A DNA stretch of 33,007 nt from a virus, in the IMG/VR virus record IMGVR_UViG_3300030117_000232, positions 1 to 33,007 of that record; one strand, given 5' to 3'. A model generated the notes under the pieces. That model saw only the letters and a list, made by a program, of their open reading frames with translations, did no database searches and was not told the DNA's origin. This document shows, one piece after another, positions 8,000 to 33,007 of this stretch. How positions within the stretch are numbered: position 1 is the stretch's first letter; each line of letters begins with the position of its first letter. A program made the translations under genes and the position numbers.

Positions 8000-8389
8000 C
8001 TAGAAAGGTATATCATCTTCTACCTCTTGTGAAGCATCTTCTTGCTTTGGCTCTGGTTCTTGTTGCTTTTGTTTCTCACTGACTTTGAGCGACATGAACT
8101 TTCGTCCATCTTTCTCGCCACGCCAACCAGCAATGCGCCAGTCCTGATGCAAGCCGTCGAGTGGGCCTGAGTAGTCTGGTGCTTTGTCGTTGCCGTTCTT
8201 GTCGTTGCTGAACAGGACACCGATCTTCTGAAAGATCTCAAGGCGTTTCTCGCCCGTGTTTGTTTCGGCAGTGACAATGACAACCTGCATGTCTTCGCCC
8301 ATGACGTTCAGCTTGCCGTTCAGCAGCAGACGTTGTTCGGGCCAAGGCTTGCCAGCGATGCCAGAGTTTCTATTGTCGTATTCAGCCAT
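8000..8389 (-). CDS. Single-stranded DNA-binding-like protein
   Basis: A 129-residue protein. The N-terminal part looks like an OB-type or DUF736-like fold (NRNSGIAGKPW ... LLLNGKLNV ... DYSGPLDGLHQDWRIAGWRG ... GRKFMSLKVSEK). A Gln/Glu/Lys-rich linker follows, and the last residues are EVEDDIPF. That acidic, Phe-ending tip is the hallmark of bacterial SSB proteins, which use it to recruit partners. The start at 8389 follows AGGAGAAAAGCCCA; upstream codons in the longer frame belong to the neighbouring gene. It is the last gene of the exonuclease-annealing-SSB set and should coat single strands during recombination and replication. Confidence 0.8.
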   Translation of the reverse strand: MAEYDNRNSGIAGKPWPEQRLLLNGKLNVMGEDMQVVIVTAETNTGEKRLEIFQKIGVLFSNDKNGNDKAPDYSGPLDGLHQDWRIAGWRGEKDGRKFMSLKVSEKQKQQEPEPKQEDASQEVEDDIPF

Positions 8390-8780
8390 TGGGCTTTTCT
8401 CCTGTGATGATTTGCATAGCAGTAGAGTTGTTATGCGGGTTGGCAATCTTGTATTGGGTTGGTGCGCGTCCGCGTGTTTTTACAGGCAGACCTGCCTTGC
8501 GTATGTTTTTGAGGTAGGTTCTGACTGACTCCTGTGTGTAGCCAAACTTGGCTATGATATCATCAACCGTCCTGTATCTGGTGAGCATGTACTGAGCCAT
8601 GCCGGTTGGATACCAGTCTGATCTGCGTTGTCTAATATCTGATACAGGCTTATGAACTATAACTGACGGTACCTGTTTTGGAACTGTCATGCCACGCAGC
8701 ACAAGCAGATCTTCAATCATCTTGTCGATACGAGCGAGTCGATACTCGATCTTGTCGAGTCGTTTATTAATCCCAAGCAT
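8382..8780 (-). CDS. Winged-helix/HTH protein in the recombination operon
   Basis: A 132-residue protein. Residues 1-30 are a charged helix that could pair as a coiled coil (INKRLDKIEYRLARIDKMIE). The second half holds a helix-turn-helix (TVDDIIAKFGYTQESVRTYL) and a wing-like strand (GLPVKTRGRAPTQYKI). It probably binds DNA as a dimer. ATGATG begins at 8783; the second ATG (8780) is better spaced from AGGAGG. It overlaps the annealing gene upstream and the SSB-like gene downstream. It could be a local regulator or a replication-initiation accessory factor; the target is unknown. Confidence 0.75.
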   Translation of the reverse strand: MLGINKRLDKIEYRLARIDKMIEDLLVLRGMTVPKQVPSVIVHKPVSDIRQRRSDWYPTGMAQYMLTRYRTVDDIIAKFGYTQESVRTYLKNIRKAGLPVKTRGRAPTQYKIANPHNNSTAMQIITGEKPNG

Positions 8781-9204
8781 CATCAGCCTCCTGTTTCTTT
8801 GTTACCTTCTGCACTTTGGGGTTGGACACACTGGCTGCATTGCCATCGTCATCTTCTGACGGAAGACCGAAGGCCGCTTGCAAGCCGTAACGCTTGGCGT
8901 ATGTGATACCGCTGCCCATCTTCTGCGGGTCTGTGTTGTCCTTGGTCAGCACAGGTGTGCGACCAGTGACTGACTCACCAGACTCGTGCATCAGGATTGT
9001 GGTTACAAAGATGTGATGCTCGTCAAAGTCAACAAGCTGGGTGAATGTCAGCCCAACCTTGCCAGCTTCTGCGCGGACAGTCTCAATGACTTCCTCTAGG
9101 TTGGCATACTTGGACTTGAAGAAGGGATTGTCTGCACCCTTCTTGGCTGCTGCCCCACTGTCGTGGAACTTGATCAGCGCTACTGCAAGGTTCTTAGTCG
9201 TCAT
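8767..9204 (-). CDS. ERF-family single-strand annealing protein
   Basis: A 145-residue recombinase of the ERF superfamily. Features seen: the N-terminal NPFFKSKYANLEEVIETVRA, the VGLTFTQLV strand, and MGSGITYAKRYGLQAAFGLPSEDDDGN, the conserved SYakRYaL-type motif of the family. ERF proteins form rings on single strands and pair complementary DNA, with an exonuclease and an SSB. Here the exonuclease gene is immediately upstream (11-bp overlap) and an SSB-like gene lies two genes downstream. The ATG at 9204 follows GGAGAACC. The acidic end (EADDAWD) is typical. It is short for the family, so it is probably the core domain alone. Confidence 0.9.
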   Translation of the reverse strand: MTTKNLAVALIKFHDSGAAAKKGADNPFFKSKYANLEEVIETVRAEAGKVGLTFTQLVDFDEHHIFVTTILMHESGESVTGRTPVLTKDNTDPQKMGSGITYAKRYGLQAAFGLPSEDDDGNAASVSNPKVQKVTKKQEADDAWD

Positions 9205-9997
9205 AGTGGTTCTCCTTTACTGCGATACGAAGTGATCCGCGCTTGTCGCGCTTGATGGTGAGGAGATCGCAGTACACCTCTCGCTCATCATCTCCTACCA
9301 TTGCCTTGAGATCAGCCTTGGCAGATTCAAATAGCTGTGCATTACCCTGTTGTTCGATGTAGTCATGGCACCGGCTGATGAACTCGTTGTCACCAGAAGC
9401 ATCGCGCTTGACCATATCGTTGACAGGAATCTTGTCTTGGTTTGTCGAGGCAACATGATTGCCATACACCTCGTCAGCTTCTGCTGGCGGTGTATCATCT
9501 ACAACAAGTTGCCAGAACGTCTTGAGATGCACACGCATCCGCTCAACGTAATCATCAGCACGAGACACACGCACCGACTCCCAGCGTCTGTTGCCAAACA
9601 AGACTGACAGATAACATTCTGTGTAGTTGCCAATCCACATATAGAACTGGATCTGTGGCATGTACTGCTTGAGTACATTGTCGATGGTGTTGTTGTCGTA
9701 AGTGTGCTTGCACTCGATTGGTGTGACGCCCTCGACAAGACCATCAAGATGCCCCTTGCATGGTACACCGTCTACATCTAGCTTGACCTCATGCTGGCTG
9801 GCAGACACTTGCTTGCCTGTCTGCTGATGAAACCAGTTAATGTTGAACTGTTCGGTGAATGAGCCAAGCTGTACTGGCAATACATCTGATAGATCGTCAG
9901 GCTTCTTGCGTCCTGTCTTCTCTTCCCAGAGTGATATCCAGTCACCTTCCATGATGCGGCGCATGTCGCTGCCGCCGATAAATCCTGTTCGGTTCAT
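9194..9997 (-). CDS. YqaJ-type recombination exonuclease (lambda-exonuclease-like)
   Basis: A 267-residue nuclease. It starts with IGGSD (residues 7-11), the usual opening of YqaJ proteins. Glu49 (GSFTEQFN), Asp85 (GHLDG) and Glu95-Cys-Lys97 (IECKH) make the PD-(D/E)xK active site. The enzyme should degrade one strand of linear duplex DNA to give single-stranded ends for the annealing protein next door. It is preceded by GGAGAACC and by a candidate promoter at 10019-10047 with an operator-like site. The residues and neighbours agree well, so the call is firm. Confidence 0.92.
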   Translation of the reverse strand: MNRTGFIGGSDMRRIMEGDWISLWEEKTGRKKPDDLSDVLPVQLGSFTEQFNINWFHQQTGKQVSASQHEVKLDVDGVPCKGHLDGLVEGVTPIECKHTYDNNTIDNVLKQYMPQIQFYMWIGNYTECYLSVLFGNRRWESVRVSRADDYVERMRVHLKTFWQLVVDDTPPAEADEVYGNHVASTNQDKIPVNDMVKRDASGDNEFISRCHDYIEQQGNAQLFESAKADLKAMVGDDEREVYCDLLTIKRDKRGSLRIAVKENHYDD

Positions 9998-10018: not shown

Positions 10019-10047
10019 AGTCTACTGCGAACTTGCAGTTAGTGCAA
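10019..10047 (-). promoter_or_regulatory. Candidate promoter P3 with operator-like palindrome, before the exonuclease
   Basis: Read leftward: a -35-like TTGCAC (10047-10042), a 17-bp spacer, and a -10-like TAGACT (10024-10019), leaving a short leader to the ATG at 9997. The spacer and its edge hold ACTGCAAGTTCGCAGT (10039-10024), nearly the same as sites at 11414-11429 and 14615-14630. It overlaps the last codons of the 212-residue gene. A repressor bound here would block RNA polymerase. Confidence 0.5.
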
Positions 10048-10660
10048 CCTTCTTGGCTGTCAGTGCCTCCATTAGTTTGCGACGTTTCTCAACACGCCAC
10101 TCAATGTGTTTGTGGAACTCGGCGTATGCCGGCCAGAAGGTACACGACTCCCCGACCTTCTGGACGGCATACAACACGATGTCCGCAGGATACTTGATTA
10201 ACTGAGCAGTGAGTGACTTGATCCTAATTGCCTGATCTTTGGCAGTTTCTCCTGCTGGCTTCACCACAAGCGTTGCCAGCATGGTTAGCTGCTCACCTAC
10301 CTGTTTATCAGGAAGGGGCGTCAGTGAGGCTTGTACGGCGTTTAAAGCACGGTCTAGCGATGCCTCGTCGGTCACATGCACATCGTAGCGTAGCAATGTG
10401 ATCTGAACGTCGCCATCACGAGGGAAGCGTGTGCGTTCTACACTAGAAATCGTCAAGCCCGGTAATAAGTCCAGCGAAGTGACCAGATTCCTGTCCACTT
10501 CTGCTGGATCTCCGACTTCCATTAGACGAGCCACCGCTCGTTGCTGCTGTTCCCCACTCAACGGCGTTAGTACACCATTTTTTGTAAGCGAGGTCTGGTC
10601 GCTTGAATGTGTTCCCTTTCGACCTGTGGTGATCGCGGAACTTAGTGGCTTCAATGTCAT
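10022..10660 (-). CDS. Replication-associated protein candidate (212 aa), unknown family
   Basis: A 212-residue protein. The middle (LSGEQQQRAVARLMEVGDPA ... LTISSVERTRFPRDGDV) and the C-terminal helices (YPADIVLYAVQKVGESCTFW ... AYAEFHKHIEWRVEKRRKLM) look like genuine protein. The FWPAYAEFHKHIEWRVEKR pattern reminds me of helicase-loader or replication-accessory proteins of other phages, but I cannot name a family. The start at 10660 has AGGAGTGGAG upstream. Its first 218 bp overlap the nuclease gene in another frame of the same strand, and its N-terminal 40 residues look low-complexity, so a later start is possible. Confidence 0.72.
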   Translation of the reverse strand: MTLKPLSSAITTGRKGTHSSDQTSLTKNGVLTPLSGEQQQRAVARLMEVGDPAEVDRNLVTSLDLLPGLTISSVERTRFPRDGDVQITLLRYDVHVTDEASLDRALNAVQASLTPLPDKQVGEQLTMLATLVVKPAGETAKDQAIRIKSLTAQLIKYPADIVLYAVQKVGESCTFWPAYAEFHKHIEWRVEKRRKLMEALTAKKVALTASSQ

Positions 10661-11075
10661 GGTTTATCTCCACTCCTAGCAAATCATTGAGTGTAGCCTG
10701 TTGCTTGTCGGTTGGCATCCATTCTTCAGATAACTCTGCTTTGGTTGCTCGTTTCTTTTTGGTTAGTAACGGAGCGATGTCACGCTCAAACACATCACCG
10801 TCAAAGATGACAAGCGTCTTTGGTGTGCCGACTTTGCGTTTGTAAAATGCAACGTCACGCACAACGGTGAATGGGTTGGGGAAGTTTGACTTGTCTCTGT
10901 ATTTTACTTCCACCACCAACTCAAGTCGTCCGAGTTTCCAGATGATGTCGCCGGAGTATTCTCCGCCGAGTGCTCCTGATAGGGGCTGGCGTTTGGCTTG
11001 GAAGCCAAGTTCTTTGAGCCAGTCGACGAACCATCTTTCGTGGTAGTTTCCTTTGTCGCGATTTTTGTTTGCCAT
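10443..11075 (-). CDS. Holliday-junction-resolvase-like nuclease
   Basis: A 210-residue protein. The first 110 residues fit the Hjc/endonuclease fold: Glu13 (NYHERWF), a glycine-rich turn (PLSGALGGEYSGD) with Asp43, then Glu56-Val-Lys58 in LVVEVKYRD, the PD-(D/E)xK triad. Such enzymes cut four-way DNA junctions formed during recombination or replication, and this block also encodes an exonuclease and an annealing protein. It starts at 11075 after AGGAGAACCA. The last 70 residues become Ser/Gly/Arg-rich and lie in a 218-bp overlap with the next gene, so only the N-terminal domain is clearly constrained. Confidence 0.78.
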   Translation of the reverse strand: MANKNRDKGNYHERWFVDWLKELGFQAKRQPLSGALGGEYSGDIIWKLGRLELVVEVKYRDKSNFPNPFTVVRDVAFYKRKVGTPKTLVIFDGDVFERDIAPLLTKKKRATKAELSEEWMPTDKQQATLNDLLGVEINHDIEATKFRDHHRSKGNTFKRPDLAYKKWCTNAVEWGTAATSGGSSNGSRRSSRSGQESGHFAGLITGLDDF

Positions 11076-11236
11076 TGGTTCTCCTGATAGCAGTCAAGGC
11101 AGATTGTGTACCATGACGGCGGGTTGATCGATGCTACTGGACAGACAAACCAAGGCGTCACTGCACCACATGCTTCGCATGTTTGTGCCTTGCCCTGATT
11201 AAGTTTCTTTTTTGTGCGTCTGTTTCTTGCTGGCAT
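10904..11236 (-). CDS. Small zinc-finger-like protein
   Basis: A 110-residue frame. The N-terminal 60 residues hold two Cys-x2-Cys pairs (CEACG and CLDCY) about 27 residues apart, plus a basic start (NRRTKKKLNQGK). This is a zinc-ribbon layout often seen in small DNA- or protein-binding phage proteins. The rest is Thr/Ser-rich and lies in a 172-bp overlap with the start of the nuclease gene, whose ribosome site falls inside this gene. The ribosome site for 11236 is weak and the start overlaps the HTH gene by 38 bp, so the start is uncertain. Confidence 0.6.
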   Translation of the reverse strand: MPARNRRTKKKLNQGKAQTCEACGAVTPWFVCPVASINPPSWYTICLDCYQENQWQTKIATKETTTKDGSSTGSKNLASKPNASPYQEHSAENTPATSSGNSDDLSWWWK

Positions 11237-11432
11237 CGGTGATGTAATCGAACACTAGTTTTGCGGTTTCGTAGCGTAACTCCCTGCCTTGATTGGCTCT
11301 GTAATAGGTTGAGTCTCGAACACCAGCTTGAAGGAACGCATCCTTGAGTGATATTCGGTGGCGCTTTGCTCTGTTTTTGAGCGTTGTCATGTAGCTTTTC
11401 ATGCAGGGATAGTCCTGCATACTTGCAGTCAT
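11199..11432 (-). CDS. Small helix-turn-helix regulator (Cro/XRE-like)
   Basis: A 77-residue protein. After a short N-terminus, residues 15-60 form a helix-turn-helix domain: TLKNRAKRHRISLKDAFLQA, then GVRDSTYYRANQGRELRYET. This is like small phage repressors. The ATG at 11432 overlaps the upstream stop by four bases. An internal ATG at 11402 would also keep the whole DNA-binding domain. The gene's 5' end contains the operator-like site CCTGCATACTTGCAGT (plus strand, 11414-11429) inside a promoter-like sequence, so it may repress itself. It is the best candidate for the protein that reads the three related sites; that link is an inference. Confidence 0.75.
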   Translation of the reverse strand: MTASMQDYPCMKSYMTTLKNRAKRHRISLKDAFLQAGVRDSTYYRANQGRELRYETAKLVFDYITDASKKQTHKKET

Positions 11433-11437
11433 GTCAA
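11409..11437 (-). promoter_or_regulatory. Candidate promoter P2 with operator-like site at the HTH gene
   Basis: Read leftward: a perfect -35 TTGACA (11437-11432), 17 bp, then a weak -10 GACTAT (11414-11409). The spacer is filled by ACTGCAAGTATGCAG. Transcription would start near 11402, where an in-frame ATG of the HTH gene lies, so a leaderless transcript is possible. The sequence also codes for the first residues of the HTH gene's longer form. Confidence 0.45.
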
Positions 11438-11809
11438 TTCGCTATTGCACTTTTGTTTTTGGACGCATTGTATGGCGTACATAATGGTTTCTAAATGCTC
11501 GTTGTTTCTTTGCTGTAAGTTTTTTTCAAGAACAACGACCATTCTCTTGGTTATATCTAACATTTCCTCAATATCTTCGGTGAACCCCGCCGAGTAATGA
11601 AGTCCAAAAACATCAGACAGAATTGCATATTCAACATCTGTTTCTAAGTTATGCAGCCATCCATACTCATCTGATTCTGCATATCTTTTGTGCATAGACT
11701 CCATAACACTACGATTGCCGGAAGGTCTGCGACTGCCCAGACTTATTCTTCCAGTGCTGGGATGTCCGCTGTATATGGAGATTTCTCTTTCTCTTTCTTG
11801 TGATGGCAT
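11429..11809 (-). CDS. Leftward-block protein, unknown function (126 aa)
   Basis: A 126-residue protein. The first 35 residues are Ser/Arg/Gly-rich and probably unstructured. The rest is helical and acidic (ESMHKRYAESDEYGWLHNLE, TEDIEEMLDITKRMVVVLEK). The ATG at 11809 overlaps the stop of the upstream gene by one base and has AGGAGG nearby; the GTG codon just before it is a less likely start. It overlaps the HTH gene by four bases, so the two are coupled. Being translated with the repressor candidate, it might modify its activity, but no family is recognised. Confidence 0.65.
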   Translation of the reverse strand: MPSQEREREISIYSGHPSTGRISLGSRRPSGNRSVMESMHKRYAESDEYGWLHNLETDVEYAILSDVFGLHYSAGFTEDIEEMLDITKRMVVVLEKNLQQRNNEHLETIMYAIQCVQKQKCNSELT

Positions 11810-11985
11810 CACTTATTTCCTCCTGATCTTTCTTTGCTGTAGATAGTCCTGACTTTGGAAGCAGCACCGAACTTCTGGCGTGTATGAAATGCTTTGGTGT
11901 ACACAGTCTCGGCTCGGCGCTTGCGTCCTTCTCGGATTTCTTTGTCGACTATCTTGGGGTTTCTATTCCGATACTTCGTCTGCAA
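11809..11985 (-). CDS. Small basic protein with TTG start
   Basis: A 58-residue protein read from TTG at 11985 (QTKYRNRNPKIVDKEIREGR ... KEIREGRKRRAETVYTKAFH ... IYSKERSGGNK). No ATG is in frame, but AAGGAG sits seven bases before the TTG, and the frame ends in TGATG, coupling it to the next gene. It is very rich in Lys and Arg and could bind nucleic acid. It overlaps the upstream winged-helix gene by 23 bp. It fills an otherwise empty 150-bp gap in a block with no other gaps, which supports it. Confidence 0.6.
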   Translation of the reverse strand: MQTKYRNRNPKIVDKEIREGRKRRAETVYTKAFHTRQKFGAASKVRTIYSKERSGGNK

Positions 11986-12328
11986 CGTAGAACTCCTTTG
12001 CCCACATGATTAGCTGCTGTCGGCCAGACTCGCCTTTGCGTTTGCGATGATCAGTGAAGATCAAGCCCTTCTCTTTGAGTTGCTTGTATCTGGCAGTGAT
12101 TGTGCTGTAGCGATAGCCCGGAAGGATGCGCAGCACATCGTCAGATATGCAGCCATTGTCTGCAAAGCTGGTGATTGCAGCTAATACAACACGCTCCATT
12201 TTGCTGACATCAAGCTGCTCGGCAGCATCATGGCTAGTGCTTGGGTCGTCACGACGAGCCAACTTAAATGCTGGTGTCTCTGGAAAATCTGGCTGGTCTA
12301 GTCCTAGCCTGTCAAACAGATCGTTCAT
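11963..12328 (-). CDS. Winged-helix DNA-binding protein
   Basis: A 121-residue protein with a winged-helix layout. SKMERVVLAAITSFADNGCI and DDVLRILPGYRYSTITARYK give the recognition helix, and LKEKGLIFTDHRKRKGESGR gives the wing. The stretch RRDDPSTSHDAAEQL before it is common in phage and bacterial proteins of this type. It probably acts as a transcription regulator or replication accessory. The ATG at 12328 follows AGGAGAACC. It overlaps the gene on each side by 17-23 bp. The target is unknown. Confidence 0.75.
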   Translation of the reverse strand: MNDLFDRLGLDQPDFPETPAFKLARRDDPSTSHDAAEQLDVSKMERVVLAAITSFADNGCISDDVLRILPGYRYSTITARYKQLKEKGLIFTDHRKRKGESGRQQLIMWAKEFYVADEVSE

Positions 12329-12503
12329 TGATTGGTTCTCCTAGTTGCTTGTTGATAAAAGTAACACAGGCATCGTGTTTGTATTCTAACCTGCGCCATT
12401 CTTGTTCGGTGTAATGGTCACGATCTTTGAGTTGTATCTCAAAGTGTGTGGCGATTGAGTCCATTAGGTAATGATACATCTCATATCGCATTAGGTTCTC
12501 CAT
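12312..12503 (-). CDS. Small helical protein, unknown function
   Basis: A 63-residue protein (MENLMRYEMYHYLMDSIATH ...), helical and charged, ending QLGEPINERSV. The start at 12503 follows AAGGAGAACAG; the frame also opens at 12527, but that lies in the previous gene's tail and lacks a ribosome site. Its 17-bp overlap with the next gene repeats the packing style of the block. No family recognised. Confidence 0.65.
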   Translation of the reverse strand: MENLMRYEMYHYLMDSIATHFEIQLKDRDHYTEQEWRRLEYKHDACVTFINKQLGEPINERSV

Positions 12504-12703
12504 TCTGTTCTCCTTGCTTCCGGCCATACAGAATGTTTTCCGAGTGGTGGATTTTTAAGTACAGCTTTCCTGATGTGTACCTCGCTGCCTTGTCTAAACC
12601 CTCCTTGATATGGCTCCTCTTGGAACTTGTGATCTATTGGGCCAGTAAACATGGTGTCAAAATCTGGGTCTATTACGAGACCGTACCAGTAATGGTATGC
12701 CAT
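12491..12703 (-). CDS. Small protein, unknown function (70 aa)
   Basis: A 70-residue protein rich in aromatic residues at the start (MAYHYWYGLVIDPDFDTMFT) and basic at the end (VWPEARRTEWRT). GGAG lies about ten bases before the ATG at 12703. It overlaps the zinc-finger-like gene by 31 bp and the next gene by 13 bp. No domain or family can be named. Confidence 0.6.
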   Translation of the reverse strand: MAYHYWYGLVIDPDFDTMFTGPIDHKFQEEPYQGGFRQGSEVHIRKAVLKNPPLGKHSVWPEARRTEWRT

Positions 12704-12927
12704 TCGTCTAACTCCATTGCAGTGTTGGCGGCATCCACTTCATCGGTGGCCCACACTTGTTGGTAGACTATGTACGATGTCATCACTTTGAGATCGTCAC
12801 TATCGCAGCAGGGGCAGAAGCCCCCGCTGTCTTCGCTGTAATGTTTGAGATCATGATAGTGTTCTATGTGTGCTTCGCACTCGCGGCACTCGTAGAACTC
12901 ACGGCTCAAGGTGTGGAATGTAGTCAT
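12673..12927 (-). CDS. Small zinc-finger-like protein (84 aa)
   Basis: An 84-residue protein with CRECEAH near residue 13 and CPCCDSDDLKV near residue 38, together a probable zinc-binding site (two Cys-x2-Cys pairs), with nearby His residues. The start at 12927 follows GGAGGAG; the frame opens earlier, but without a ribosome site and inside the upstream gene. Zinc-ribbon proteins of this size in phage early regions often bind host proteins or DNA. The exact role is unknown. Confidence 0.68.
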   Translation of the reverse strand: MTTFHTLSREFYECRECEAHIEHYHDLKHYSEDSGGFCPCCDSDDLKVMTSYIVYQQVWATDEVDAANTAMELDEWHTITGTVS

Positions 12928-13114
12928 CCAACTCCTCCATTGGGTTGGCTGCTTCCCATGCTTTGGTCGCACGATCTATAAATTTCTTGCGATCAAAGCG
13001 TGGGTTGGTTGCAGCTAACTTGTCAGCCATGTCTTGTATTTTTGCTGGCCACGGCAAGAGTGGTGCTACATTGTCTGCAATGTATTCAAAGTGGCGTTGT
13101 TGCATGAGTGACAT
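12899..13114 (-). CDS. Small conserved-looking protein (71 aa)
   Basis: A 71-residue protein starting MSLMQQRHFEYIADNVAPLL and containing ATNPRFDRKKFIDRATKAWE, a pattern I have seen often in small proteins of marine phage early regions (helical, with FDRxxF). The start at 13114 follows GGAGAACCGAATA, and the preceding gene stops at the same bases (TAATG). No function is known to me. Confidence 0.72.
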   Translation of the reverse strand: MSLMQQRHFEYIADNVAPLLPWPAKIQDMADKLAATNPRFDRKKFIDRATKAWEAANPMEELDDYIPHLEP

Positions 13115-13323
13115 TATTCGGTTCTCCACATGCGGTGTGTGTCTTGACCCTCTCTGCGTGTAACGCATTTATATCCGTAACGTGTCATTGCGTTTCGATA
13201 TGATGCCGTGTCGTAAGATTTGACAACAAAGCTGTCACCGATCTTTACGTCTGACAGAAAGCCATATTTATCTTTTTTATTGATGGCTGGCAGTGGGATG
13301 TTCTTTTCAACTTTAGGTTGCAT
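13114..13323 (-). CDS. Small beta-type protein (69 aa), unknown function
   Basis: A 69-residue protein: IPLPAINKKDKYGFLSDVKI, then GDSFVVKSYDTASYRNAMTR, and TRREGQDTHRMWRTE at the end. The scheme of a short linear motif, a VGDSF-like strand and a C-terminal R-x-WR is common among small phage proteins. The ATG at 13323 has AAGGAGG at good spacing and shares one base with the upstream stop. Function unknown. Confidence 0.72.
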   Translation of the reverse strand: MQPKVEKNIPLPAINKKDKYGFLSDVKIGDSFVVKSYDTASYRNAMTRYGYKCVTRREGQDTHRMWRTE

Positions 13324-13532
13324 TATTTTACCTCCTTGATTGATGGTTCGATTGGTTCTGCAACGAATCTATCAAGCGACTCGTGATATTTGCTTTTGAT
13401 TCCGTTGAGTGTGTACAGAGCGTGTTCTACCTCATAACGAAAGGCATCTTTGCCTGTGTCATTGATGTTGTCTCTGGCTCTGTCGAGGAGGCCAATGGCC
13501 CCCTCTACGAGTACGATGAATGGTGTTGACAT
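13323..13532 (-). CDS. Small helical protein (69 aa), unknown function
   Basis: A 69-residue protein, mainly helical (VEGAIGLLDRARDNINDTGK, AFRYEVEHALYTLNGIKSKY) and mildly acidic. AGGAGACAG precedes the ATG at 13532. It sits nine bases after the DUF932-type gene. No family recognised; probably translated as part of the same early operon. Confidence 0.68.
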   Translation of the reverse strand: MSTPFIVLVEGAIGLLDRARDNINDTGKDAFRYEVEHALYTLNGIKSKYHESLDRFVAEPIEPSIKEVK

Positions 13533-13540
13533 ACTGTCTC

Positions 13541-14413
13541 CTATGCAAGGTGCCAGTTGGCTGGCTTGAGTGCTTTGATAAGCAGGTTCTCACGGTTGCG
13601 TCTGGCAACGTGTGGTGTGTTGGTGTCACCAGTATGCGTAGCCCAATGTGTGCAAGCGTTGTACAAAGCCCACTTGTTGCTGCCGAGTTGAACTTTCTCT
13701 TTGTTCCACTGGCGGCAAAGCTGCTCGTAACGACGCTCGTTGATCTTGATGCTTGCATCCTGTGTTGGGTAACGACACAGCTTCATCTTGAAGAACAAGA
13801 AAGCTGTCTCGTCATCGACGCTGGTTGTCATCCAGCTTTTGTACACATCTTTGTCCTGCATGAATGTCTCAAGGCCAGCTACAATCTTGGCTGTGCTGCC
13901 TTTGACATTCACATTAGTGGTATGCTTGGCCCATGTGTTAGCTACAGTCATGGCGTTACTACAGCCATTTTTGCACCAGACCCTATGACCACGGCTGGTC
14001 TGCTGGAACGCCCAGCTACCATCGTAGCTGTTGTAAAACAGGATCTCGTGTTTGATGATATCGCCAACGTCAGGTTCGATGACCAGATCGTTGAACAAGA
14101 ATCGACCACGCATCTTGGCTCCGCCGTCGAGTGAGTCGATAGTCAAGTCATAGTCACGGCTGATGCCTGACTCATGCACTGCATCGACCATTGCATTGAC
14201 GACAGTCATGTTGGTTATTGGCTTGTATTTTTTTCCATGCACACCCAGAACCTGATTGGTGTCAGTGCGCACGATTGCACGCGCCATATTTTCTGGCACC
14301 TCAAGATTGTCAGTGTGGATTGACGATGCGTGTAAGCTGCACATCTCAACTGGGAAATGCCACAGCTTGGTTGCAGTATAGTCAATCTTTTTGTCTACAA
14401 TAGTTCCATCCAT
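13541..14413 (-). CDS. DUF932-type phage protein
   Basis: A 290-residue protein with the layout of the DUF932 (phage/plasmid TIGR03299-like) family. The early stretch RTDTNQVLGVHGKKYKPITN is the typical 'copy, then K-Y-x-P-I' segment. Later come GHRVWCKNGCSNAM with paired cysteines and WNKEKVQLGSNKWALYNACT near the end, close to the family's conserved core. Members occur on phages and plasmids beside recombination genes; their biochemical function is not established to my knowledge. The ATG at 14413 follows GGGGAACCAAA. It is the second gene behind the promoter at 14628-14655 and the largest ORF of the leftward block. Confidence 0.85.
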   Translation of the reverse strand: MDGTIVDKKIDYTATKLWHFPVEMCSLHASSIHTDNLEVPENMARAIVRTDTNQVLGVHGKKYKPITNMTVVNAMVDAVHESGISRDYDLTIDSLDGGAKMRGRFLFNDLVIEPDVGDIIKHEILFYNSYDGSWAFQQTSRGHRVWCKNGCSNAMTVANTWAKHTTNVNVKGSTAKIVAGLETFMQDKDVYKSWMTTSVDDETAFLFFKMKLCRYPTQDASIKINERRYEQLCRQWNKEKVQLGSNKWALYNACTHWATHTGDTNTPHVARRNRENLLIKALKPANWHLA

Positions 14414-14431
14414 TTTGGTTCCCCTTGCTGG

Positions 14432-14602
14432 CTACTCAGCCATTGTGCGGACAATGCCGCCGATGATGGCGACAAATAGGCCGCCGATAAGGCATGCGAT
14501 CTGAAAGAAGAAGGCGCTATCATCCATTGGCTCTGCCATTGATGTGCCGAAAATCAGAGCGAACATGCCGATTCCGATTAGAAAATTTGATAGAAGTTTC
14601 AT
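14432..14602 (-). CDS. Small two-helix membrane protein
   Basis: A 56-residue protein, first in its transcript. It has two membrane segments, about residues 5-20 (SNFLIGIGMFALIFGT) and 31-50 (FFQIACLIGGLFVAIIGGIV). The ATG at 14602 has AGGAGG five bases before it. It starts right behind a promoter with an operator-like palindrome, so it should be made early or on derepression. A role in superinfection exclusion or membrane alteration is possible; nothing in the sequence fixes it. A longer frame exists upstream but runs through the promoter. Confidence 0.7.
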   Translation of the reverse strand: MKLLSNFLIGIGMFALIFGTSMAEPMDDSAFFFQIACLIGGLFVAIIGGIVRTMAE

Positions 14603-14607
14603 TTTTT

Positions 14608-14655
14608 CCTCCTTACTGCATACTTGCAGTATAGCAGCAATTGTTGTGGTTGCAA
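14608..14655 (-). promoter_or_regulatory. Promoter P1 overlapped by palindromic operator
   Basis: Read leftward: -35-like TTGCAA (14655-14650), 16 bp, -10-like TATACT (14633-14628), start near 14621, then AGGAGG and the ATG at 14602. A palindrome with 7-bp arms, TACTGCA-tact-TGCAGTA (14614-14631), covers the -10 and the start site, where a bound repressor would stop transcription. It is the most symmetrical of the three related sites. Confidence 0.6.
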
Positions 14656-14747: not shown

Positions 14748-15173
14748 TTAGGCTGACTTGGTGAAGAAGGAACCTGCATCCGCAGTGGCTGCTGCGTTCT
14801 GCTTGGCAGCGTTGATTTGATCAGGGAACATCTGCATCTGAGCTTGCTTGAAGTATGCAAGCAGCTCTTCAGCAACGTTCTGCTGATCGTTGTGCCAGTT
14901 CCAGTCACGCTCCCATTGCAGAAGCTGACCGGCATCGAAGGCTGGTGCGCCTTCAATGTCTCCGGCACGGTTGGCGTTCATCTCTACGCCCTTGTCGAAG
15001 ATCTCTGTCTTGATCTTCTCCTTGCGGTCAATCGACCACTCAAAGTGATCAATGATCTTTTGTACATGATACTGTACTGATCTGTTTGTTGTTTTGTTCT
15101 CTTCAACAGCAGCAAGAGAAAAGATGGTGGTCAGGTTCTTGGCAAGTCCATTTACGTTTGATTGCTTTGACAT
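14748..15173 (-). CDS. First leftward gene, unknown function (141 aa)
   Basis: A 141-residue protein, helical and charged (NRSVQYHVQKIIDHFEWSID, RDWNWHNDQQNVAEELLAYF), ending in an Ala-rich tail (AKQNAAATADAGSFFTKSA). AAGGAG precedes the ATG at 15173. It is the only gene between the divergent control region and the terminator at 14706-14735, so it forms its own unit and may be expressed strongly and early. I do not recognise a family; its place suggests a host-takeover or DNA-associated role. Confidence 0.75.
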   Translation of the reverse strand: MSKQSNVNGLAKNLTTIFSLAAVEENKTTNRSVQYHVQKIIDHFEWSIDRKEKIKTEIFDKGVEMNANRAGDIEGAPAFDAGQLLQWERDWNWHNDQQNVAEELLAYFKQAQMQMFPDQINAAKQNAAATADAGSFFTKSA

Positions 15174-32900: not shown

Positions 32901-33007
32901 GTGCATAATGAAAAAGGTGTTGTGTACATAGACCTTGAACAAATCTCTGAAAGATTTGCAGCTTTAAAAGAAATGCCAATCAAAGAAGCAAGGGCATTAA
33001 TTAAAAA
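29937..33007 (+). CDS. Internal virion (ejection) protein, gp16-like, N-terminal part
   Basis: Begins at the ATG of ATGA (29937) and stays open to the window end, continuing in frame at position 2 for a total of about 1351 residues. Residues 111-152 and 169-190 are hydrophobic (HFFAGLADPINLVALPFGG, INVGSAFVIGGLLGSAISI), fitting a protein that enters the host membrane. Residues from about 225 to 295 are a charged helix, probably a coiled coil (SADEAARLVDERRAEFDRA). The rest is helical. I see no transglycosylase domain at the N-terminus, where T7 gp16 has one. A possible zinc motif lies in the last quarter (see the feature at 2-1084). Confidence 0.88.
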   Translation, partial: MKVVVDPFAHNDVLYSGVQTQLAADDPSFFDVVEASVGYTYDPIIEAISNRIKYDGLEDVNYRPLDNIDGYEAYRDDLMDAKNAEHMADLKRAIDENLARRDILAKATFGQHFFAGLADPINLVALPFGGATVGMARSFLKTGASVGVLAAGQETLRAPFDPVGTKSEIAINVGSAFVIGGLLGSAISIPASRRAAAFEATEKSLGEHAAVLRAQPDVNKNLPAPTTERPLSQVENYELDAVTSTAPRVIQQLQESADEAARLVDERRAEFDRATTPDDMTRTKAALDEAEESASNIQAELNARKNEYDMFKREADLRKADQAAIDAMDDPYGLPKNLWTDSVFYKFVTTPMKRVLQDTGITDNAKKIILGIAGDSGILLNMHRGGLRLGPSVYQKASMRDGEWVKVYDELRNIYGAEFGKGKQTFLDYDVGGITQKVAEKVKAQPENISFQQYITELNKKRMRGEAASTDAESRGIKLLDDFYETWEKRLNQTGLIGNQAFYKNKSILLEGDIAKRQAIVDDLKAKKNRTASDEDRLAHNQRMLGRLKNQKEDVDLQIEAMKDFPATGNFAEKFHPRYWLKGEVESRRADLHRILTEWYQKNPYVYILNEKTGKYQRVRTDPDTAGQRADETIDKILGLDDVTAEGNAFYGYGRSKHFRHRDVDIPNELVLDFIETNPVAVMKAYTAKVAPQYELQVKFGKGIDDLLDEVEDDLLAAGVGRLRINRTLRDIRHLNDRVQGQVIRNPDALNYKAAIILKDLAMLNYLGSAGFATLPDFAKIMMEHEMGTVWKSLFGVMSDNRVRMSSEEGRIAGEIIDILKGDAHLRFSEGMINNPLNEGLMSNVRSTFFMLNGVAPMTAMFKKLDAIARGHTLIDYSIKLTRGEATEQEIAYLARYNIGKQEAAEIANAPWDKTDGGLYLPNTREWTTGRQAQANYVDLGYDTIVFRYGDEFNVSRIVSDPDEYAAARQRLGWKDKESGIPFGFHEYVHNEKGVVYIDLEQISERFAALKEMPIKEARALIK
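32909..33006. repeat. Terminal direct repeat, right copy
   Basis: Identical to 1-98. The giant ORF passes through both copies in the same register (codon AAT at 32907-32909, then GAA at 32910, which is GAA at 2). One base (33007) differs from position 99. Confidence 0.93.

Follow-up and report, generated by a model that had tools for sequence, protein, structure and literature searches.

Comparison with described repressor systems

The cI message that phage lambda transcribes from PRM is a classic leaderless message. Leaderless mRNAs that start at AUG have also been mapped by rapid amplification of cDNA ends for both cI and cro of phage PY54 (PMC4488713), and the transcript dependent on C.PvuII, a C protein of a restriction-modification (R-M) system, is leaderless as well (PMC2997769). 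Here we analyzed record IMGVR_UViG_3300030117_000232, from an uncultivated short-tailed marine phage, over its whole length of 33,007 bases (the window; 46% G+C). In its leftward early region we describe a 67-amino-acid (67-aa) helix-turn-helix (HTH) protein that is probably a Cro-like dimeric repressor of three promoters, P1, P2 (its own) and P3, acting through the palindrome RCTGCA-N4-TGCAGY to shut off the early genes.

The proposed circuit resembles those of lambdoid Cro and CI, and especially that of PY54 Cro, in combining a small helical HTH protein, a 16-bp palindromic operator, operators placed in core promoters and a putative leaderless mRNA. It differs from the lambdoid arrangement in that one protein would serve three co-directional promoters, with no divergent CI/Cro pair and no shared intergenic operators. 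Unlike in PY54, integrase and plasmid functions were not found in the searches given below, and there is no significant sequence similarity to PY54 Cro. The C proteins C.PvuII, C.Esp1396I and C.Kpn2I are small XRE-type autoregulators, and such proteins lie among the nearest predicted folds. However, restriction or methylase genes were not detected here, the sites are single 16-bp palindromes and not tandem C-boxes, and an activator role is not indicated; the genes around the 67-aa gene encode nuclease/initiator, YqaJ and Erf proteins, so it is not placed among the R-M C proteins. HipB and DdrO also came up as fold neighbours in the search of PDB structures, with E-values that are not significant, but neither a toxin partner nor a damage-response context was seen. 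By terminase, the nearest cultured phages are Pelagibacter phage EXVC031P Hodr and Methylophilales phage MEP301 (64% and 42%, respectively); Hodr also shares the YqaJ and Hjc-like genes and MEP301 an Erf gene, and both are without the HTH family and without operators at these genes. Literature searches on Hodr and on Cro-like regulators of virulent phages returned no direct precedent in the open literature. The kind of repressor is known; the HTH family and the layout of the circuit are new.

Operator sites and promoters

A sequence-only reading of the window had described one 16-bp near-palindrome at three places, each in or over a sigma70-like promoter facing left. The coordinates that it gave for the three sites were right, and the hexamers and spacers that it quoted were confirmed in the sequence:

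14615-14630, minus strand: operator O1, ACTGCAAGTATGCAGT, overlapping both the -10 end of P1 and its start point
14655-14650 (-35) and 14633-14628 (-10), minus strand: promoter P1, TTGCAA-16-TATACT
11414-11429, minus strand: operator O2, ACTGCAAGTATGCAGG, occupying the P2 promoter spacer
11437-11432 (-35) and 11414-11409 (-10), minus strand: promoter P2, TTGACA-17-GACTAT, the repressor promoter, followed by 6 nucleotides (nt) and then ATG 11402
10024-10039, minus strand: operator O3, ACTGCAAGTTCGCAGT, inside the P3 promoter spacer
10047-10042 (-35) and 10024-10019 (-10), minus strand: promoter P3, TTGCAC-17-TAGACT
11199-11402, minus strand: 67-aa HTH protein, the proposed autorepressor, with a putative leaderless mRNA from ATG 11402

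Read on the minus (gene) strand, the sites are ACTGCA-AGTA-TGCAGT (O1), ACTGCA-AGTA-TGCAGG (O2) and ACTGCA-AGTT-CGCAGT (O3); the inverted-repeat arms ACTGCA/TGCAGT around N4 are perfect over 6 bp in O1 and agree at 5/6 in O2 and O3. When both strands of the whole record were searched with ACTGCATACTTGCAGT at up to 3 mismatches, only these three matches were returned (with 0, 1 and 2 mismatches), so that the scan suggested earlier as a check revealed no surplus copies in coding sequence. A reversed control pattern gave 0 matches across the 33,007 bases, and dinucleotide shuffles of the window contained a mean of 0.50 matches, with three reached in 1/100 shuffles. With a scoring matrix built from 45 distinct sites, O1-O3 scored 19.8-22.7 and the next best site in the record 12.4; order-1 Markov simulations gave 0.03 expected sites at a score of at least 19, a test with some circularity, the matrix having been trained on the same family. 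For the promoters, a generic consensus scan showed no excess over shuffles and listed P1 alone among P1-P3. The promoter claim therefore rests on conservation: a TTGCAN/TATACT-type arrangement upstream of the operator was found again in many relatives (P1), and P3 of relatives is in register, e.g., TTGAAC-17-TATAAT.

Start codon and putative leaderless message

The HTH gene was compared across 20 lineages, defined as HTH proteins at ≤75% identity, a useful unit since many of the contigs are close relatives. In all 20, TTGAC (TTGAA in one) opens 34-37 nt before a conserved ATG, and the same distance from -35 to ATG holds in all 51 distinct HTH promoter sequences. The best -10 ends 6 nt before the ATG in 15 lineages and 5, 5, 5, 7, and 8 nt before it in the other five. 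This geometry is kept whether the operator sits in the spacer (most lineages) or over the -10 and +1 (few). A Shine-Dalgarno-like motif (GGAG/GAGG/AGGA) precedes the HTH ATG in a single lineage, where it is part of a window-type operator, in contrast to the YqaJ genes, which are preceded by one in 112/115 cases. Judged by its sequence, a start codon at the expected transcription start without a Shine-Dalgarno site is the prevailing pattern of the 20 lineages, and the repressor mRNA most likely begins with the AUG at 11402 and is leaderless.

The upstream ATG at 11432 is missing in several related loci (L025, L030, L064, L067, L075). Because it is not conserved and the -35/-10/ATG geometry at 11402 is, we take the gene to be 11199-11402, encoding 67 aa. 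O2 therefore lies upstream of the HTH gene, and the earlier placement of an operator inside a repressor-like gene (11199-11432) was a start-codon artefact. O3 does overlap coding sequence, namely the last codons of the preceding frame, 10022-10660. The open reading frame (ORF) at 11429-11812, directly upstream of P2, ends on ATG 11432 in an ATGA overlap; it occurs in the window alone among the 95 regions carrying the HTH, and this overlap was rejected as support for the upstream start given that lone occurrence and the five lineages without the ATG. Different genes in different relatives stop exactly at the -35 box of P2, which marks this promoter as a module boundary.

Predicted fold of the HTH protein

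The AlphaFold2 model of the 67-aa protein is a four-helix HTH (predicted local distance difference test score 86; helices 4-14, 19-25, 30-37, and 44-64). Its neighbours in a Foldseek search of PDB structures were mostly XRE-type (HipB, C.Kpn2I, DdrO, C.Esp1396I, and 434 Cro with a TM score of 0.63), all at E >0.3. Within the family alignment, S-T-[YF]-Y-R in the third helix is invariant. The HTH_3 profile matched 4/22 relatives weakly (best E 0.025) and did not match the window protein. Searches for the family in 50,697 phage records and 72,556 plasmid records gave a single weak match in the former and none in the latter.

Conservation of the operators and co-occurrence with the HTH gene

Relatives were collected by scanning viral contigs: as queries, the HTH protein gave 47 loci at 38-100% identity, YqaJ 80 and DUF932 20, and the HTH alignment gave 368 related stretches, 80 of them kept; not all loci span all three operator places. 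In these loci the palindrome, with the consensus RCTGCA-N4-TGCAGY, has as many as three counterparts: one some 40 nt ahead of YqaJ, one where the HTH gene starts, and one at the front of the early operon, 2-3 kb upstream. Nearly all lineages with loci covering the region have it at two or three of these promoters, and it persists in relatives whose HTH identity is only about 35-50%, the lower end being about 35-40%, which bears out the expectation that the same promoters would be conserved in related phages. The arms are nearly invariant while the N4 centre varies, and they are kept even where flanking DNA and the peptide it encodes differ. At O3, the preceding frame of relatives stops within or after the operator (ALTASSQ, ALTAQLQ, or ELTA before the stop) with the arms unchanged; because the arms stay while the stop of the overlapping frame shifts, selection acts on the DNA. 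Among 26 whole records, the perfect pattern occurred in 0-2 copies each and the reversed control in none. Viewed in the window alone, where 1/100 shuffles reach three matches at up to 3 mismatches, the likeness of the three promoter regions might be put down to chance; the recurrence of the same sites at the same promoters in nearly all of the 20 lineages, with controls at zero, refutes this, and we regard its probability as negligible.

The operator also follows the HTH gene. At YqaJ the operator occurs in relatives that have the HTH family and is lacking in those that do not, and the family and the operator at these genes are jointly absent from Hodr, MEP301, L120, L121, and L132. Hodr, L120, and L121 are the direct tests, because MEP301 and L132 gave no YqaJ match; two matrix matches do occur in the MEP301 genome, at other places. 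Among the regions carrying the HTH, a second HTH gene, HTH2 (HTH_3, Pfam 32.6 bits), directly follows the 67-aa gene in 70/95 (for example L117:6256-6456, L033:5032-5235, and L047:6215-6466). This adjacency of a clear HTH_3 protein in most relatives speaks for another binder, either a second phage HTH protein or a host regulator (LexA-like or other), with the 67-aa protein acting elsewhere. However, HTH2 was not found in the window clade, L024, or L076, all of which keep the operators, and Hodr keeps an HTH2 homologue with neither the operator nor the 67-aa family. The conservation of the sites in phages from metagenome-assembled genome (MAG) bins of different phyla argues weakly against a single host regulator, and we consider another binder improbable. 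Furthermore, whether the recognition-helix position just ahead of STYYR holds D or T correlates with the outer operator base (A versus A/G; 54:5 versus 21:14, Fisher P 0.0004, uncorrected for phylogeny). The co-absence, the distribution of HTH2 and this association combine to point to the 67-aa protein as the likely binder. Together with the uniqueness and conservation of the sites, the co-occurrence supports the small regulon under the HTH protein that the sequence-only reading had suggested. Among the same 95 regions, a winged HTH gene as at 11963-12328 was found in 53 and an HTH gene as at 8382-8783 in 25; operators are kept in regions where these two genes or HTH2 are missing, and part of the missing genes reflects limited contig coverage.

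Proposed mode of action

Palindromic operators of the Cro/CI type lie, as sites, in the putative own promoter of the HTH gene and in the early promoters. From this arrangement we infer binding, dimerisation, repression rather than activation, timing, and early shutoff rather than lysogeny. Action as a repressor is expected because sites in 16-17-bp spacers or over the -10 and +1 can hardly do otherwise: a repressor dimer on O2 or O3 (17-bp spacers), or on O1 (-10 and start point), would exclude RNA polymerase. Since 2/3 operators lie between -35 and -10, a MerR-like activator working in the promoter spacer was also considered. MerR proteins untwist 19-20 bp spacers, but those of P1-P3 are 16-17 bp and near optimal, O1 lies over the -10 and start point, and the predicted fold is XRE-like and not MerR-like, all of which makes an activator very improbable.

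Under the repressor model, P1, P2, and P3 would be host sigma70 promoters, P1 driving the membrane peptide and DUF932 genes, P2 the HTH and nuclease/initiator genes, and P3 the YqaJ, Erf, and single-strand DNA-binding protein genes. After entry all three would fire, and the accumulating repressor would then turn them down, its own gene included, so that early, recombination, and replication functions would appear in a pulse and then stay at a fixed low level. Repression of the sole identified own promoter would amount to negative feedback, with a fast rise and a low plateau. The repressor message would be leaderless, as opposed to the Shine-Dalgarno sites on the P1 and P3 genes.

Several observations weigh against this interpretation. 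The -10 of P2 (GACTAT) is weak, operators at the HTH promoter are degenerate in some lineages, and in L024, L032, L037, L133, and L135 the operator there lies over the -10 and +1 and not in the spacer. The window HTH protein has no significant Pfam, PHROG, or PDB sequence match, and its model has no Foldseek match at E 1e-3 or better. A second XRE gene, present in many relatives, might act at the same operators, and the lineages are related, so their counts are not independent.

Lysogeny and dormancy

Pfam searches of 22 records returned no integrase (PF00589), serine recombinase (PF00239), or ParA (PF13614), in agreement with the earlier statement that the phage has no integrase, and a prophage search with YqaJ in 84,980 genomes returned no relative. 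The HTH alignment matched four MAG contigs in genomes, apparently phage-only in the stretches examined, which are most likely binned free phages. Contigs L133, L134, L135, and L136 were binned in MAGs labelled Euryarchaeota, Rhodobacteraceae, Opitutae, and Flavobacteriales, labels that do not establish hosts because mis-binning is probable. P1-P3 all face left and a divergent partner gene is found at none of the sites; since a divergent partner and prophage functions were tested for and not found, the circuit is not a lambda-type switch.

The main rival sees in the HTH protein a repressor for maintenance or immunity that would keep the early and replication genes of a dormant, non-integrated phage form (plasmid-like or carrier-state) silent until induction. 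A non-integrated state needs no integrase, the targets include an operon with an initiator-like gene, and leaderless repressor mRNAs are known from PY54, a linear plasmid prophage (PMC4488713). Set against this are the searches above, in which ParA was as absent as the integrase and recombinase, together with the phage-only appearance of the four MAG matches and the lack of a plasmid match. In addition, a repressor that silences its only identified promoter, with no divergent partner promoter, would give homeostasis and not a stable switch. Dormancy is thus unlikely, and Cro-like early shutoff is favoured over lysogeny because integrase, serine recombinase, ParA, and prophages were all not found in these searches. 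A broader possibility, which we raise tentatively and hold to be rather unlikely, is that this abundant group of uncultivated marine podophages keeps a lysogeny-type circuit while unable to integrate, either as a timer of a purely lytic early pulse, retained throughout the group, or for a hidden non-integrated dormancy under a single leaderless autorepressor.

A regulator family, its operator, three targets, and a conserved leaderless start could be defined here from sequence alone, and a gene hitherto without annotation in a widespread group of marine phages becomes a directly testable putative repressor. This prompts one to ask why such a circuit is retained by phages in which lysogeny functions are not detectable, and it provides a clean natural data set on repressor-operator co-evolution and on selection on leaderless translation.

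Genes and other features of the leftward early region

The genes that had been placed behind the three promoters were all recovered: a membrane peptide and a DUF932 gene, the small HTH gene, and an exonuclease with an annealing protein.

14432-14602, minus strand: membrane peptide of 56 aa (MKLLSNFLIGIG...), encoded by the gene that opens the P1 unit; Shine-Dalgarno GGAGGAA at 14612-14606
13541-14413, minus strand: DUF932 protein of the P1 unit (PF06067, 66.3 bits, E 4e-18)
10443-11075, minus strand: Hjc/PDDEXK-like nuclease (Hjc phrog_244) fused to the C-terminal part of an O-like replication initiator (phrog_1032 C-terminus)
9194-9997, minus strand: YqaJ/RecE-like exonuclease (phrog_434, E 2e-31; PF09588), with Shine-Dalgarno AAGGAGAA at 10009-10002
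8767-9204, minus strand: Erf-type single-strand annealing protein of the P3 unit (PF04404, 92.8 bits)
8000-8446, minus strand: single-strand DNA-binding-like protein at the end of the leftward unit (phrog_7364, E 1e-6)
14736-14711, minus strand: strong intrinsic terminator-like hairpin, 11-pair stem with 8 GC and a T-rich tail, isolating the gene at 14748-15173 from the P1 unit
7950-7925, minus strand: terminator-like hairpin, 11-pair stem with 7 GC and a T-rich tail, at the end of the leftward early region

Many relatives, though not all, also encode a short membrane peptide downstream of the operator. With one hairpin before P1 and the other at the end of the region, P1, P2, and P3 look nested in one early region.

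In relatives, the O-like initiator gene (e.g., L085:6903-7565; phrog_1032 replication initiation protein, E 3e-20) contains iterons, two or three copies of TTGCA-N3-(A/T)GCAA with a 21-bp period, as at L080:6133-6195. They also occur in L067, L070, L074, L085, L092, L097, L106, L144, and L149, about 1,120 nt past the HTH ATG, and mark a candidate lambda-O-like origin inside the initiator gene. In the window fusion gene (10443-11075), both the winged-helix domain and the iterons of relatives are missing, as though lost jointly. In L067, L072, L074, L080, L081, L085, L089, L149, L150, L157, L160, L181, and L187, the -35 of P1 is itself made up by the iteron palindrome TTGCA-N3-TGCAA, which stands 25-26 nt ahead of the operator; it is degenerate in the window clade. 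Since the iterons and P1 share this motif, P1 may be co-regulated by the initiator. The reading of TTGCA-N3-TGCAA as a weak operator variant was set aside, a replication-initiator site being the better fit. Finally, at the ends of the record (1-99 and 32948-33007) the last bases repeat sequence near the start and a reading frame spans the joined ends, which is consistent with a circular or terminally redundant genome.

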